Assembly (NCBI GenBank): GCA_945883825.1
Contig: CAMCYF010000006.1
Coordinates: 1-64,000, forward strand
Direction: 5' to 3'
DNA: 64,000 bases
Source of the DNA: Chitinophaga pinensis
GTDB taxonomy: Bacteria > Bacteroidota > Bacteroidia > Flavobacteriales_D > Crocinitomicaceae
The translations under genes and the position numbers were made by a program. This document shows, in pieces, positions 6,290 to 21,005 of the stretch. Under the pieces are notes generated by a model. It saw only the letters and a program-made list of their open reading frames with translations. It was not told the origin of the DNA and did not search any database. Every line of letters starts with the position of its first letter. Within the stretch, counting starts at the first letter, position 1.

Positions 6290-6682
6290 ATGACATTAAA
6301 AGAAACTATTTCTGCTGTTGAAATTTTCCATGATGCTTTTGGGATTAAAAATAATTATGAGCCAACAATTGATTTAACTGAAAAAGATATTGAATTACGA
6401 TATAATTTAATGAATGAGGAGAATTCTGAATACCTTGAAGCTGCAAAAAATGGCGATATTGTCGAAGTTGCAGATGCTTTAGGAGATCAATTATACATTC
6501 TTTGTGGTACTATTTTAAAACATGGCTTACAGCACAAAATAGTTGAGGTTTTTACTGAGATTCAACGCTCAAATATGTCCAAATTAGATATAAGTGGAAA
6601 GCCTATTTACCGTGAAGATGGTAAGGTTTTAAAATCTTCACTTTATTTTCGTCCAAATATTAAAGCAATTCTTGAAAAATAG
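6290..6682 (+). CDS. MazG-like nucleotide/phosphoribosyl-ATP pyrophosphohydrolase-family protein
   Basis: A 130-residue all-alpha NTP pyrophosphatase. Metal-binding acidic motifs are visible: EENSEYLEAAKNGD near residues 43-56, and EVADALGDQLYI near 59-71, matching the ExxE(12-28)ExxD pattern of MazG and HisE-like enzymes. The C-terminal NMSKLDISGKPIYREDGKV segment is typical of the stand-alone Bacteroidota form. It probably hydrolyses a nucleoside triphosphate or related pyrophosphate as housecleaning; the substrate is unknown. It is transcribed divergently from the amidohydrolases. A weak -7-like TATATTCG lies about 15 bp before the start. Confidence 0.85.
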   Translation: MTLKETISAVEIFHDAFGIKNNYEPTIDLTEKDIELRYNLMNEENSEYLEAAKNGDIVEVADALGDQLYILCGTILKHGLQHKIVEVFTEIQRSNMSKLDISGKPIYREDGKVLKSSLYFRPNIKAILEK

Positions 6683-6783
6683 AGTTATTCACGATTTAGT
6701 CTTTAATACTTTATATCAAACAAGCACTTAGATAATTACTTAATAAGTAGTTTTGATTAAATTAATTCTATGCAATCATAAAA

Positions 6784-7932
6784 ATGAAGGATATATCGAT
6801 CTATTTTAGTCCTGTTGATGTTACAGGAGAATGGCACGAAGATCAAATAGGGTCAAAAATCGTCGCAAATCATAGCTCCTTTCCAGAAATTCAAAAAAAT
6901 TCTTGTGCTTTAATTTATGTTCCTGAATTTCGTGGGTTCAAAAATTCTGACATAAAACAAGAAATCCAATCTAAGTTTAGAGAATCATTTTATGAACTGC
7001 AAATAGGCACAAATTGGAAGAGTAATTTATATGATCTAGGTGATATTCTTCCGGGACAAGATTTAAAAGATACCTATTTCGCCCTTTCTCAAGTAGTTTC
7101 AGAATTAGTAAAAATAAATGTAATACCAATTGTAGTTGGTGGAAGTCAAGATCTTATTTTAGCGCTTTATTCAGCTTATGAAAAATTAGAGCAGATGATA
7201 AATATTTGTTCTGTTGATTATGCCCTAGATTTAGGAGCCCCCGAAGATGAGATAAATTCAAATGGTTATGTGAGTCATTTGTTGTTAAAGCGACCTTGTT
7301 ATTTATTCAATCATGCTAATATTGGTTTACAAGTACCTTACTCAAATCCTAAGGAATTAGCACTGTTTGAAAAACTTTACTTTGATATTTGTCGCTTAGG
7401 AGAGTTTAATGCTGACTTTAAGAAAGCTGAACCTCACTTAAGAAATGCAGATATAATTAATATTGATTTTGAATCTATTAAAGCATCTGAAACACTCAAT
7501 AGAAGTGGTCTGCCAAATGGCTTTTATGCCGAACAAATTTGTCAGATCGGAAAATATGCAGGAATATCAGATAAAGTTTCTTCTTTTGGCATATTTAATT
7601 ATCTAAATCAAACACAAGTTTCTGATCAACTTTTAGCGCAGCTGATTTGGTATTTTATTGATGGTGTTGCCTCGCGTTTTGGTGATTTTCCTATTGGAAA
7701 TAAAGTAGATTACAAAAAATTTACTGTTGTCATGGAGGAATCCAATAATGAATTGGTTTTTTTTAAGAGTAATAAGTCATCTCGGTGGTGGATGGAAGTT
7801 CCATTTCCTCCTAGCAATCAAAGTAAATACGAACGTCATTATCTTGTTCCATGTAATAAAGAAGATTACGAAAATGCTATGAAAAATGAGATGCCTGATT
7901 TGTGGTGGAAAACCTACCAAAAACTTTCTTGA
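6784..7932 (+). CDS. arginase/formimidoylglutamase-fold protein, metal site lost
   Basis: A 382-residue protein with the ureohydrolase fold order. The normal Mn-binding motifs are altered at each position: GGDH appears as GGSQD (residues about 119-123), the DAHxD motif appears as VDYALDLG, and the late SxDxDxxDP appears as NIDFESIKAS. It is therefore predicted not to be a working arginase. It lies directly before the porP-gldKLMN group, an association I recall for related Bacteroidota, which suggests a structural or regulatory role tied to secretion or gliding. That role is inference. The C-terminus (KNEMPDLWWKTYQKL) is also characteristic of this subgroup. Confidence 0.8.
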   Translation: MKDISIYFSPVDVTGEWHEDQIGSKIVANHSSFPEIQKNSCALIYVPEFRGFKNSDIKQEIQSKFRESFYELQIGTNWKSNLYDLGDILPGQDLKDTYFALSQVVSELVKINVIPIVVGGSQDLILALYSAYEKLEQMINICSVDYALDLGAPEDEINSNGYVSHLLLKRPCYLFNHANIGLQVPYSNPKELALFEKLYFDICRLGEFNADFKKAEPHLRNADIINIDFESIKASETLNRSGLPNGFYAEQICQIGKYAGISDKVSSFGIFNYLNQTQVSDQLLAQLIWYFIDGVASRFGDFPIGNKVDYKKFTVVMEESNNELVFFKSNKSSRWWMEVPFPPSNQSKYERHYLVPCNKEDYENAMKNEMPDLWWKTYQKLS

Positions 7933-8044
7933 AAAACCTTTTTTTTTAACAATTTTTTATTTTTCAATTAATATGATTATTTTAGCACATTATTTTTACT
8001 CAAGAAACTATTGTTTACTTGTGTAATCTTTATAAAATTTTGTT

Positions 8045-8992
8045 ATGAAATTAAAAAATAGTATATTAGTATTTGTTTATTCTTTTGTCTTTTCTCAGTT
8101 TTTTGCACAACAGGATAAATTAGTAACAAATTTCATGTTTGATAAAATGACTGTTAATCCCGGAAAAACTGGCATTGATATGAATAACAGTATTTGTGCA
8201 ACCTCTATCTACAGAAATCAATGGGATAAAGTTAACGGAGCTCCAAACTCAGCAGTTTTAAATATAGAAGGAAATTTTTCGAGATTTTTCAAAGGTGGTG
8301 TTGGCCTTGCCTTTTATCACGATGCTATTGGTTTTTCTCGTCAAAATAATTTATTGCTTAATTATTCTTATCCAATTAAAATAAGCAATGTAGGAGTTTT
8401 AGGTTTGGGTATAGGTCTAGGTATTATTAATTATGGTTTAGATCCAGACTGGAATCCACCTTCAGCTGCTCCTGATCCATCACTTCCCATTGGTTTTTCT
8501 GCAACTAATTTAGATGTAAATTTAGGGTTCTATTTTAAAGGAAAAGATTATTATGCTGGTCTATCATCTACACATCTATCTGAGTCACTTTTAAAAAAAA
8601 CAGTTGATGGTTTTGACCAGAACTATCAGACAGCTCGACATTATTATTTTATGGGTGGTAAAACTTTTGATAACGTTTTAAATGGTAAGATAGACGCACA
8701 AGTTTTAATGAGAACTGAACTTATTAAGTTTTCTTTTGATGTCAATGCGCGTTATTTTTTTAATATTAATAACAAAGAACTATTTGGAGGAATCACATAT
8801 AGAAATTCAGACGCAGTAGCTGTTTTATTAGGATTTTCTCCAACTGAAAAATTTACAATCGGATACTCTTACGATATTTCAATCAACAAACTATCTTCAG
8901 TTTCAAGAGGTTCTCATGAAATAGTTTTCAAATACTGTTATTTTATTAAGATGCCAAAACCAACAATTTCAAGAAACCCAAGATTTTTATAA
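8045..8992 (+). CDS. porP/sprF: PorP/SprF family type IX secretion outer-membrane protein
   Basis: A 315-residue protein with a signal peptide (MKLKNSILVFVYSFVFSQFFAQ) followed by an alternating beta-strand pattern of an outer-membrane barrel. Family signatures are visible: the early NKFMFDKMTVNPG-like stretch, TSIYRNQWDKVNGAPNSAVLNI, and the late YSYDISINKLSSVSRGSHEIVFKY. PorP/SprF proteins work with the T9SS translocon and, in gliding species, with surface adhesins. Its position before gldKLMN matches the porPKLMN order of Porphyromonas rather than the separate sprF of Flavobacterium johnsoniae (from memory). Several genomes carry many paralogues, so the core-versus-accessory role is inferred from context. 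Confidence 0.92.
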   Translation: MKLKNSILVFVYSFVFSQFFAQQDKLVTNFMFDKMTVNPGKTGIDMNNSICATSIYRNQWDKVNGAPNSAVLNIEGNFSRFFKGGVGLAFYHDAIGFSRQNNLLLNYSYPIKISNVGVLGLGIGLGIINYGLDPDWNPPSAAPDPSLPIGFSATNLDVNLGFYFKGKDYYAGLSSTHLSESLLKKTVDGFDQNYQTARHYYFMGGKTFDNVLNGKIDAQVLMRTELIKFSFDVNARYFFNINNKELFGGITYRNSDAVAVLLGFSPTEKFTIGYSYDISINKLSSVSRGSHEIVFKYCYFIKMPKPTISRNPRFL

Positions 8993-18094: not shown

Positions 18095-18742
18095 ATGCGA
18101 ATTCTTATTTTTTGCTTTATTTTTTTTGCTAAAAGCTACATTCAAGCTCAAGGCACATATCAATTAGCAGTTCTAAAATATAGTGGGGGAGGTGATTATT
18201 ACGCAAATCCAACTTCGCTAACAAACCTCATTTCTTTTTGCAACAAAGAATTCGGTACAAATATCTCCAAAGAAGTTCCCTATGTAGAAGTCGGAAGTAA
18301 GGATCTATTCCGCTATCCCTTTATTCATATGACAGGACATGGAAATGTTGTATTTTCAAGAGCAGAAGCTGAAAATTTAAGAACATATTTGCTTTCAGGT
18401 GGATTTTTACACATTGACGATAATTATGGAATGGATGAATATATTCGTGTTGAATTAAAGAAAGTTTTTCCAGACATTTCACTTATTGAGCTGCCTTCAA
18501 ATCATGCGATTTACAATCAAAAATACACCTTCAATGGTCTACCGAAAATACACGAACACGACGAAAAAAAAGCACAAGCTTTTGGCATTGTAGCAAATGG
18601 TAGATTAGTTTGCCTTTATACCTTCCAAACAGATTTAGGTGATGGTTGGGAAGATCCACAAGTTCACAATGATCCGCCTGAAAAACGAAAAATGGCATTG
18701 CAAATGGGCGCCAATATACTTATGTATGCTTTTATGCGCTAG
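18095..18742 (+). CDS. DUF4159 domain protein, exported
   Basis: The ATG at 18095 gives a signal peptide (MRILIFCFIFFAKSYIQAQG) and 215 residues; longer in-frame extension into the transporter gene lacks one. The body is a single DUF4159 domain: QLAVLKYSGGGDYYANPTSL, PFIHMTGHGNVVFS, LLSGGFLHIDDNYG, and WEDPQVHNDPPEKR. The fold resembles class I glutamine-amidotransferase-like proteins; its biochemical role is unknown. The last 46 codons and stop belong to a 153-bp segment that is repeated at 19967-20119 beyond an inserted island. The intact 3' end here therefore appears to have been either kept or regenerated at insertion. Confidence 0.88.
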   Translation: MRILIFCFIFFAKSYIQAQGTYQLAVLKYSGGGDYYANPTSLTNLISFCNKEFGTNISKEVPYVEVGSKDLFRYPFIHMTGHGNVVFSRAEAENLRTYLLSGGFLHIDDNYGMDEYIRVELKKVFPDISLIELPSNHAIYNQKYTFNGLPKIHEHDEKKAQAFGIVANGRLVCLYTFQTDLGDGWEDPQVHNDPPEKRKMALQMGANILMYAFMR

Positions 18743-18757
18743 AATAAGTAATTTTAA
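18605..18757. repeat. 153-bp direct repeat, copy 1 (3' end of DUF4159 gene)
   Basis: Bases 18605-18757 match 19967-20119 at 150 of 153 positions by eye (differences at 18712, 18742 and 18745). Copy 1 is the functional end of the DUF4159 gene with stop TAG. Confidence 0.95.
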
Positions 18758-18869
18758 AAACTTGCATTAGCAATTGAATCTAGTTAATAACATTTGAGAA
18801 GTTAAACTAAAAAATAAAGTTGGTGTTTATTGGTTCATTAGGTATTTCAGTACGCTTGGCAGATGATCA

Positions 18870-19055
18870 TTTGAAGAATGGGAAAAATATCCCGAAAAAA
18901 CATTGGCTCAACTTTATGACACTTATAAAATGCCAAAAGGTTTGAAAGAAGCATTCCGTTTAACTGATGATGCAGTGGTGCGTTGTTACGGCAGTAAACC
19001 TTTAAATAGTGATGCAGAGCGTTTGGAGTACCTTTTAAATTGTATTAAAAGATGA
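18870..19055 (+). pseudogene. C-terminal relic of MmeI-like (type IIG/IIL) DNA methyltransferase
   Basis: An open stretch of 61 codons ends in TGA at 19053-19055. It reads EEWEKYPEKTLAQLYD, TYKMPKGLKEAF, LTDDAVVRCYG and SDAERLEYLLNCI. The pattern LADLYDPLxMPxxLxxAHxxLDxAV...Y...SDxERVxxLF closes MmeI/YeeA-like class I DNA methyltransferase-restriction fusions (family knowledge). The frame is closed upstream by TGA at 18864, there is no start codon, and the catalytic and target-recognition parts are absent. The 388-bp gap between the DUF4159 stop and dinD contains nothing else I can identify; 18758-18869 shows no convincing coding pattern. Confidence 0.6.
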
Positions 19056-19130
19056 TCCAGGAAAAGAAAAGGAGAAAGGCACTTTGTTGCAGTAGAAATA
19101 AAGACACGTAAATAGAAATAGCCATTAACT

Positions 19131-19958
19131 ATGACTAAAGAAATAATTATTTTTGAAAACAGCCAAATCCGTAGGCATTACGATACAGAAAATGAGGTTT
19201 GGTATTTTTCATTGGTTGATATCGTTGGGGCATTGACAGATTCTGTGAACGCCACAGATTACCTAAAAAAAATGCGGAAGAGGGATGCTGAATTAAACGG
19301 CTACATAGGGACAAATTGTCCCCAGGTAGCCATGCTCACCAATGGTAAAAATCGTAAAACATTGGCCGGGAAGGTAGAACAAATTTTCAGGTTAATTCAA
19401 TCCATTCCCTCACCAAAGGCAGAGCCCTTCAAACAATGGCTAGCCAAAGTCGGTTACGAGCGTTTAAAAGAAATTCAAGACCCCAGTTTAAGTATAGACA
19501 GAGCACGTGACACTTGGAAAAACAAGGGGCGAAGCGAAAAATGGATTCAACAACGTATGACGGGACAAGAAACCCGTAATAAATTAACCGATTATTGGAA
19601 AGATAGCGGTGTTACAGAAAAAGATGAGTTTGCCTTGTTGACCAATATTATACATCAGGAATGGACAGGGCTTAGCGTAAAAAAACACAAAGAAATCAAA
19701 GGATTGAAATCGCAGAACCTGCGAGATCACATGAGTGAAGCTGAATTGCTTTTCACTGCATTAGCAGAACTTTCAACACGTCAAATTGCTGAAACAAAAG
19801 AAGCAAAAGGTCTGATAGAAAATGCAAAAGCAAGTAAGAAAGGAGGAGAAATTGCCAAAAATGCCCGTAAAGAATTGGAAGCAAAAACAGGAAAGAGTGT
19901 GGTAACAGGTGAAAACTTTTTACCGCTTAAAAAGACCATAATAAAAGCAAAAAAATAA
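19131..19958 (+). CDS. DinD-like / BRO-N phage antirepressor-family protein
   Basis: 275 residues. The N-terminal BRO domain is clear (IRRHYDTENEVWYFSLVDI, then ALTDSVNATDYLKKM, and KTLAGKVEQIFRLIQSIPS). It is followed by the DinD-type middle (GYERLKEIQDPSLSIDRARD; RMTGQETRNKLTDYW) and a Lys/Ala-rich C-terminus. Length matches E. coli DinD. Family members are DNA-damage-inducible or phage antirepressors, and in Bacteroidota they often lie beside methyltransferase genes, as the upstream relic suggests here. The gene is intact and lies inside the repeat-bounded island, so it is probably horizontally acquired. Its current role is unknown. Confidence 0.85.
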   Translation: MTKEIIIFENSQIRRHYDTENEVWYFSLVDIVGALTDSVNATDYLKKMRKRDAELNGYIGTNCPQVAMLTNGKNRKTLAGKVEQIFRLIQSIPSPKAEPFKQWLAKVGYERLKEIQDPSLSIDRARDTWKNKGRSEKWIQQRMTGQETRNKLTDYWKDSGVTEKDEFALLTNIIHQEWTGLSVKKHKEIKGLKSQNLRDHMSEAELLFTALAELSTRQIAETKEAKGLIENAKASKKGGEIAKNARKELEAKTGKSVVTGENFLPLKKTIIKAKK

Positions 19959-19966
19959 CAACTAAT

Positions 19967-20119
19967 TTAGTTTGCCTTTATACCTTCCAAACAGATTTAG
20001 GTGATGGTTGGGAAGATCCACAAGTTCACAATGATCCGCCTGAAAAACGAAAAATGGCATTGCAAATGGGCGCAAATATACTTATGTATGCTTTTATGCG
20101 CTAAAACAAGTAATTTTAA
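19967..20119. repeat. 153-bp direct repeat, copy 2 (orphan 3' end of DUF4159 gene)
   Basis: This is a copy of 18605-18757. In the DUF4159 frame it encodes the final 45 residues (from VCLYTFQTDLGDGW to YAFMR) and stops with TAA at 20102-20104 instead of TAG. It has no start and is separated from the gene body by the island, so it is a gene remnant. Confidence 0.95.
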
Positions 20120-20143: not shown

Positions 20144-20344
20144 TTAATCGGTTTCTTCGAGAGAGAATATTTCATTGACAGTTTTACCAAAGAAATTAGA
20201 TAATTTTAGAGAGAGGACTGTAGAAGGTACATATTTGTTGAGCTCAACGGCATTAATTGCTTGTCTAGTTACTCCGATTTGTTTTGATAATTCTTCTTGG
20301 GTAATATTTTTAATAGCTCTTTCGACTTTGAGATTATTTTTCAT
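20144..20344 (-). CDS. small XRE-family HTH regulator
   Basis: 66 residues made up almost entirely of a Cro/C1-type helix-turn-helix: ITQEELSKQIGVTRQAINAVE, with the recognition helix at TRQAINAVELNKY, and the closing FFGKTVNEIFSLEE. It is of the short YozG-like type that typically pairs with a membrane protein. Here it overlaps the upstream membrane-protein gene by 11 bp on the same strand, so the pair is probably one regulatory unit. Confidence 0.9.
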   Translation of the reverse strand: MKNNLKVERAIKNITQEELSKQIGVTRQAINAVELNKYVPSTVLSLKLSNFFGKTVNEIFSLEETD

Positions 20345-21005
20345 AACTAGCTGATTTTTTAGATTGATATAGAACGTAATAAAATCTTGCTATAAATATT
20401 ACTAAAAATGCAAGCGTACTTAATAGTGGGATTTGGATAAAAAACATGCCATAAATAAAAATAACAGCAAACAAAAAGATTGCATAATTAATATACATTG
20501 CCCAAAGTAATGATTCTAAACGCAATTTGATTGTAAATTCATCTTCTGATTTAAGTTTAGAGAATCCGACCAATAGACATCCTAATACAAATAATGTGAT
20601 ACTTAACTCAAATCGAATGTCATCATATTTAAATCCCATTATCGGACTTTTAATTGTAGAGTCTTGTAAAAAGGGCCCTGAATCATAGACATAAAAGACT
20701 GGAACCTTTGTTAATAATTTGTTTTCACCATTAATGCCAAAGAACAATGTTATTAAGATAGATAGACACAATAGAATCAAGCCAATTCTATTAAATTTGT
20801 TTGGAAAAAGAAATTTTGTTTTCATACGTTTAGATTTAAGATTACGGTACAAATGTAATGTATAAATTACATAAAAGCAATAATAGATTACAAAAAGAAT
20901 TATATAGATTACATTTTTATAATAATTTATTGATAATAAGATAAATAAAACACTGCTGCCAATAAACGCAACAGTAAATGTGGGCTTGCGTTTTCGCTGA
21001 GACAT
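20334..21005 (-). CDS. hypothetical multi-pass membrane protein paired with HTH regulator
   Basis: 223 residues with about six hydrophobic segments (two in the first 50 residues, one near 75-90, one near 128-145, two between 160 and 215). A charged loop follows the second helix, and a short outside loop around FYVYDSGPFLQDS may be extracytoplasmic. I recognise no named domain. Its 3' end overlaps the XRE regulator, an arrangement known for HTH/membrane-protein pairs (for example DUF2975 neighbours) in which the membrane protein may sense an envelope signal. This role is inferred. Confidence 0.75.
   Translation of the reverse strand: MSQRKRKPTFTVAFIGSSVLFILLSINYYKNVIYIILFVIYYCFYVIYTLHLYRNLKSKRMKTKFLFPNKFNRIGLILLCLSILITLFFGINGENKLLTKVPVFYVYDSGPFLQDSTIKSPIMGFKYDDIRFELSITLFVLGCLLVGFSKLKSEDEFTIKLRLESLLWAMYINYAIFLFAVIFIYGMFFIQIPLLSTLAFLVIFIARFYYVLYQSKKSASYEK

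Follow-up and report, generated by a model that had tools for sequence, protein, structure and literature searches.

The question of how small defence genes spread when no transposase accompanies them is raised in concrete form by one locus in the 64,000-nucleotide stretch of DNA analysed here (the window, in what follows), where a single gene and a scrap of another lie between two copies of the 3' end of a third: how did this cargo come to be there, and what made the repeat that surrounds it?

A one-gene insert at the end of a DUF4159 gene

The features of the locus are as follows.

18095..18742, + strand: DUF4159 gene, the target, intact including its 3' end (PF13709, E 3.8e-70; matched in 37 of 40 genomes, the window's own genome counted)
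18605..18757, + strand: left repeat copy, consisting of the DUF4159 3' end and 15 bp past the stop codon (pairwise alignment of the copies)
18758..19966, + strand: inserted segment of 1,209 bp, missing in the sister genome G018 (empty site in L032)
18864..19055, + strand: remnant of an MmeI-type restriction-modification gene, its final ~62 codons (PF20467 MmeI_C, E 2.5e-14; PADLOC REase_MTase_IIG, E 5.8e-12; 68% identity over 56 aa to L207)
19131..19958, + strand: intact Bro-N gene of 275 aa, the cargo (PF02498, E 1.1e-8; PADLOC PDC-S13, E 7.1e-116; PHROG 15286, E 1.3e-96)
19967..20119, + strand: right repeat copy, an orphan, joined to the native downstream flank (copy comparison and G018 alignment)
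20144..20344, - strand: HTH gene, the native downstream neighbour, immediately behind DUF4159 in G018 (comparison with G018)

An earlier note on this DNA had described a doubled DUF4159 3' end with about 1.2 kb between the copies, a full gene that keeps its own end, and an orphan end beyond it. This description was confirmed: the copies at 18605-18757 and 19967-20119 are identical at 150 of 153 positions with a spacing of 1,362 bp, the gene at 18095-18742 is intact, and the right copy is the orphan. A repeat of this kind around a gene exceeds what chance would produce, judging by the control counts given below. The absence of a recombinase from the island was also borne out, the Bro-N gene being the only ORF of at least 60 aa in the insert. 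The note had further called the inserted DNA foreign-looking, and this stands as well. The GC content reaches up to 0.416 in the insert, against 0.26-0.36 in 500-bp windows outside it (14-24 kb), and the Bro-N DNA is 94.7% identical to the copy in genome G096, against 76.9% in the one further long match that the window has with the G096 stretches compared (n = 1 stretch), a difference that, as far as sequence identity can tell, indicates recent horizontal transfer of the Bro-N gene.

The empty site with one repeat copy that the note had named as support for an insertion is present in G018 (L032), with native flanks: the gene order is the same, and a single repeat copy runs straight into the HTH flank with no insert. 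G018 and window DNA are 92-98% identical near the site and 86% identical further upstream (the G018 assembly, of about 160 contigs, has a completeness of 81%). At four sites both window copies have one base and G018 another; at three sites they mismatch each other, and there comparison with G018 assigns one change to the left copy and two to the right one. Barring gene conversion, this pattern dates the duplication to after the lineages of the window and G018 separated; the choice of ancestral state between the two depends on few sites, which counts against reading the repeat as a duplication made at insertion.

Two minor features were seen around this site. The DUF4159 gene of G018 (L032 2765-3269) is missing about 47 internal codons. 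In addition, the HTH gene and a 223-aa protein that follow DUF4159 in the window (20144-21005) were found, among 20 relatives' loci, only in G018, and are possibly an older insertion at the same DUF4159 gene end.

A repeat at DUF4159 in one genome only is what might be seen if the gene end had undergone a plain tandem duplication, with a later and unrelated insertion into the duplicate, or if the assembly were in error. Bracketing repeats were present at none of the 26 DUF4159 loci of other genomes (3 of 29 having been dropped beforehand). However, the insert fills precisely the space between the copies, which mismatch each other at three sites, and the G096 and G097 assemblies show a like layout with related cargo, and we consider these explanations decidedly unlikely. 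On balance, we lean towards reading the window island as a recently acquired single-gene insertion with a long, variable target duplication, carrying a candidate defence gene.

Related inserts and the gmhA-like locus

The G096 Bro-N gene lies at an unrelated genomic site, and within the stretch compared its matching DNA covers window positions 19100-19964 only, so these inserts are without fixed ends. The G096 insert is 1,336 bp long and is accompanied by an 18-bp duplication; G097 has a single 18-bp copy there and no insert. G097 in turn holds another Bro-N gene (46% identical at the protein level) as the sole gene of a 919-bp insert behind a gmhA-like gene, bracketed by a repeat identical at 65 of 65 bp, of which G096 has one copy and no insert. 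Three Bro-N insertions can thus be compared with an insert-free sister, and they have repeats of 153, 65 and 18 bp in unrelated targets (compared by eye). None of the three inserts (window, G096, G097) contains a recombinase, and no constant att core was found across the three sites, where the repeats are unrelated by eye. Over the alignable portions of 104 kb of G097, four differences from G096 reach 250 bp or more: two are the Bro-N inserts, and the other two are replacements in which nothing is duplicated. Because the contig pairs had been picked for holding Bro-N, these four differences give no rate.

The G097 target has a SIS domain match and is referred to here as gmhA. In G097 and G076 the intact genes end in the same codons followed by about 42 bp, a stretch of 61 bp altogether with 95% identity between the two, unlike the ends of their own lineages, and this 61-bp foreign end was found at none of 23 other gmhA loci examined, though some of these end in similar residues. 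The native gmhA end has been pushed beyond the cargo, so that the G097 orphan ends like the genes of G096 and G006 and the G076 orphan is like those of G064 and G058; the 10 bp ahead of the G097 orphan match gmhA of G076 and G064, not that of G097 itself. Behind the common foreign end, G097 carries the Bro-N gene, whereas G076 carries an unrelated 248-aa ORF without a Pfam match, enclosed by a 35-bp repeat (34/35) of the gmhA-like end (L311, G076:C37:31000-36000, positions 1919-2906). To judge from the sequences, this layout would be expected if a resident gmhA had undergone one crossover with a circle bearing a gmhA end. Because the foreign end is on the intact gene and the native end on the orphan, the G097 repeat is not a plain insertion-made copy of the host target, and its 65 bp may derive from recombination rather than fresh duplication. 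That the last codons of the intact gene and the DNA downstream of it are foreign in G097, with the orphan as the native end, counts against the favoured reading.

These observations bear on the proposal of the earlier note that cargo is exchanged by homologous recombination at a conserved gene end. Exchange at gene ends also happens, as seen at gmhA with its two cargoes behind one foreign end, but as a general rule the proposal was dropped, since the targets are unrelated and the repeat lengths differ (153, 65 and 18 bp). Similarly, the different cargo between copies of one gene end that the note had looked to as a sign of an insertion hotspot was found at gmhA (Bro-N in G097, the 248-aa ORF in G076); at DUF4159 it was found in no relative, none of the 26 loci of other genomes having repeats.

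The gmhA architecture makes a second origin of the window island possible, though doubtful: a circular cassette with its own DUF4159 3' end would have entered by a single homologous crossover, the left end coming from the element and the right copy being the host original. The 61-bp foreign end, displaced native end and different cargo in G097 and G076, together with the 10 bp of G076-type gmhA before the G097 orphan, are precedents for an element-borne end, and the three differences between the DUF4159 copies, all within the last 46 bp of the repeat, are consistent with one. However, the sequence that follows the repeat in the window insert occurs in no other examined locus and in none of 30 DUF4159 downstream flanks, so that a donor-type DUF4159 flank, though sought, was not found among the loci examined; the donor would have to be very close, given that both copies carry the same base at the four sites that set G018 apart; and the 18-bp repeat of G096 is short for RecA recombination. 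It is because of this agreement between the copies, the lack of a donor flank among the examined loci and the 18-bp repeat of G096 that duplication at insertion is preferred for the window.

A site-specific integrative element, served by a recombinase in trans at the 3' ends of protein genes, was also considered. Gene 3' ends recur as targets, at 8 of the 57 Bro-N loci described below, and the foreign gmhA end contains a 24-bp near-palindrome (22/24 in G097, at L184 3391-3414, where it overlaps the foreign stop codon, and 21/24 in G076). Yet the targets are unrelated, the repeats range from 18 to more than 150 bp, and the three inserts are without a recombinase; among the loci examined, the stretch with the palindrome is confined to these two gmhA loci, and a search of IMG/VR contigs for an exact 22-base piece of it gave no match. 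We therefore hold such an element to be very unlikely.

If the favoured reading of insertion with target duplication is correct, a fragment with the Bro-N gene and the MmeI-type scrap, its neighbour in an earlier home, would have been joined into the DUF4159 3' end, leaving 153 bp of target on both sides. The joining could most simply have used a nick on each strand, the two lying 18-153 bp apart at the different sites, with fill-in doubling the stretch between them, and would have proceeded without Ku. Ku-dependent end joining was set aside because no Ku turned up in the 15 genomes searched (two of them 81-82% complete), and another joining route would be needed. At a later stage, the repeats flanking the cassette would allow it to be looped out and, by homologous recombination, to enter the corresponding gene end of another species, and it is proposed that these two steps, looping out and recombination between gene ends, explain the hybrid gmhA ends.

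Bracketing repeats around Bro-N genes and control loci

A direct repeat was counted as bracketing when it had a score of at least 22 and lay within 1,500 bp. The Bro-N loci of the order number 57, made up of the 37 loci first gathered and 20 other near-full matches, with fragments and weak matches excluded; 9 of the 57 are near a contig end, and L056 and L183 are neighbouring genes. Bracketing repeats were present at 14 of the 57, and in 8 the repeat is a gene's 3' end, compared with a single bracketed case among 104 ORFs of 200-400 aa (p 1.7e-6 for all repeats, p 0.0011 for gene ends). When controls were pooled, gene-end repeats were again more frequent at Bro-N loci (8/57 vs 4/179, p 0.0017). 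The 104 ORFs, as well as 4,000 random intervals, were drawn from 20 stretches of 20 kb (400 kb) in 13 genomes of the order with Bro-N hits, the window's own genome excluded. At a stricter score of 26, 70 of the 4,000 random 820-bp intervals were bracketed, by 10 distinct repeat pairs in 5 stretches; of 2,000 random intervals placed in the window and the examined loci, the 10 that were bracketed all reflect the repeats at the Bro-N genes themselves.

Other classes of small gene were examined in the same way. ORF6N loci had repeats in 6 of 26 cases (p 1.0 vs Bro-N; 4 of 30 dropped beforehand), three of them gene ends, of which two are tandem paralogues, and ParE loci in 4 of 23 (p 0.57 vs Bro-N; 7 of 30 dropped beforehand), with no gene ends. 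That ORF6N genes are bracketed as often as Bro-N genes, and ParE genes nearly so, counts against the favoured reading. Among 10 MmeI_C loci, with 1.5 kb around the C-terminal domain examined, the one repeat is the window's own. In named genomes of many phyla, 7 of 80 Bro-N loci (80 of 574 relatives were listed) had repeats, one of them a gene end, and at the stricter score the count was 6 of these 80 loci against 79 of 2,015 random intervals from them; within this set L104 and L068 seem to represent a single place. The MmeI_C count and the counts from the named genomes also weigh against the favoured reading. The repeat-bracketed mode is thus enriched for Bro-N genes over ordinary genes, and is not shown to be special relative to other mobile small genes.

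Several individual repeats deserve comment. Those at L063, L190 and L198 may be the ends of paralogues, L190 and L198 having one target in common in one genus, and by eye those at L067 and L196 resemble dispersed repeats, all of which tells against the favoured reading. At L153 (3862-4941), a Bro-N gene is accompanied by a 93-bp repeat (82/93) of the start of the following gene, which is a duplication of a 5' end; by eye, the Bro-N gene looks to be flanked by hsdS and hsdR genes. The same architecture as in the window, with other cargo, is seen at L221 (G082:C13:20000-39999, positions 6569-8381), where a 184-bp repeat (162/184), copying the 3' end of a gene for 560 aa that by eye resembles an ABC-F ATPase, surrounds a 304-aa ORF without a Pfam match.

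The cargo and its relation to known systems

Long and variable target duplication upon insertion has been described for restriction-modification genes by comparison of related genomes (Nobusato et al., 2000; Furuta et al., 2010, as cited in passages of PMC3031569 and PMC1643837). As in the cases reported in those passages (PMC3031569, PMC1643837), the window insertion is gene-sized, lacks a recombinase of its own, has a target repeat of variable length and is seen between close relatives; in addition, a restriction-enzyme scrap travels along with it. The features that agree are the 153-bp target repeat, the empty site in G018 and the variable lengths of 153, 65 and 18 bp. The cargo differs, being a solitary Bro-N/PDC-S13 gene and not a restriction-modification system, and at gmhA the repeats bear a foreign gene end. 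The window therefore fits a known type of insertion with long target duplication except for its cargo, which is a candidate defence gene. In the literature searched (titles and abstract openings), solitary Bro-N genes with such repeats were not found.

Other systems show part of this pattern. Integrative elements and prophages can rebuild the 3' end of a protein gene upon insertion, as e14 does in icd. The Bro-N inserts resemble such elements in having an intact gene on one side and a displaced end on the other, with a foreign end on the intact gene at gmhA, but they differ in having no recombinase, no constant core, unrelated targets and the size of one gene. Homology-facilitated illegitimate recombination during natural transformation, in which one junction is homologous and the other illegitimate, could also yield such products.

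The MmeI-type scrap directly before the Bro-N gene suggests, as judged from its sequence, an earlier stay beside a restriction gene. At L081 a gene for an Eco57I-type methylase has its end duplicated, with a Bro-N gene following, and in G167, which belongs to the family of the window genome and to a different genus, an MmeI-like gene and a Bro-N gene lie a few kb apart. Elsewhere, at L211 (G084:C10), another short orphan MmeI C-terminal piece was seen next to an ORF6N-type gene, without bracketing repeats.

The Bro-N gene of the window is a candidate single-gene phage defence by its match to PDC-S13, a PADLOC candidate model that covers its residues 2-270; PDC-S13 was not found by name in the literature searched, and PHROG 15286 has no function assigned. 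A match to DinD (NCBIfam PRK11525) is weak (E 0.00036, 20 bits vs a cut-off of 242, residues 134-251). Comparison of the window and G096 genes gives a dN of 0.016 against a dS of 0.22, from which it follows that the gene has been kept under purifying selection. Searches for a close relative carried by a phage or plasmid turned up no more than 4 phage and 11 plasmid records, none of which reached 60% identity.

Among sequence relatives of known structure there was a single match, at chance level (E 0.48). For the predicted structure of the protein (pLDDT 83, pTM 0.52), the nearest structure is DdrC of Deinococcus radiodurans (Foldseek E 8.5e-7), with a Z of 13.6 and an rmsd of 12.6 over 198 residues for the whole predicted chain, and a Z of 7.5 and an rmsd of 4.1 for the N-terminal domain; the next match, to a designed helical protein, has a Z of 6.0. 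DdrC binds and bridges DNA breaks. Although it is the top structural match of the cargo protein, identity is 14% and the domain arrangement is different, and the predicted DdrC-like fold, if shared, does not show a common function. One could imagine that the Bro-N/DdrC-like protein is itself the mobility factor, holding paired nicks or breaks together and capturing DNA with its own gene, which would make a one-gene element that has neither nuclease nor transposase, produces target duplications of great and variable length, and afterwards passes in circular form from one species to another at matching gene ends; we rate this idea as unlikely.

Under the favoured reading, in which a candidate defence gene entered with duplication of its target, PDC-S13-type genes gain a recognisable mode of spread, and one-gene insertions that separate sister genomes, variable duplications, the finding of no Ku and a gmhA locus with two cargoes together make the mechanism testable. 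In three species of one genus (L313, L314 and L315), the Bro-N proteins are near-identical save for a segment of the N-terminal domain, in which that of G192 (L314) deviates from those of G343 and G140, and on comparison of these sequences the difference looks like a swapped recognition segment.
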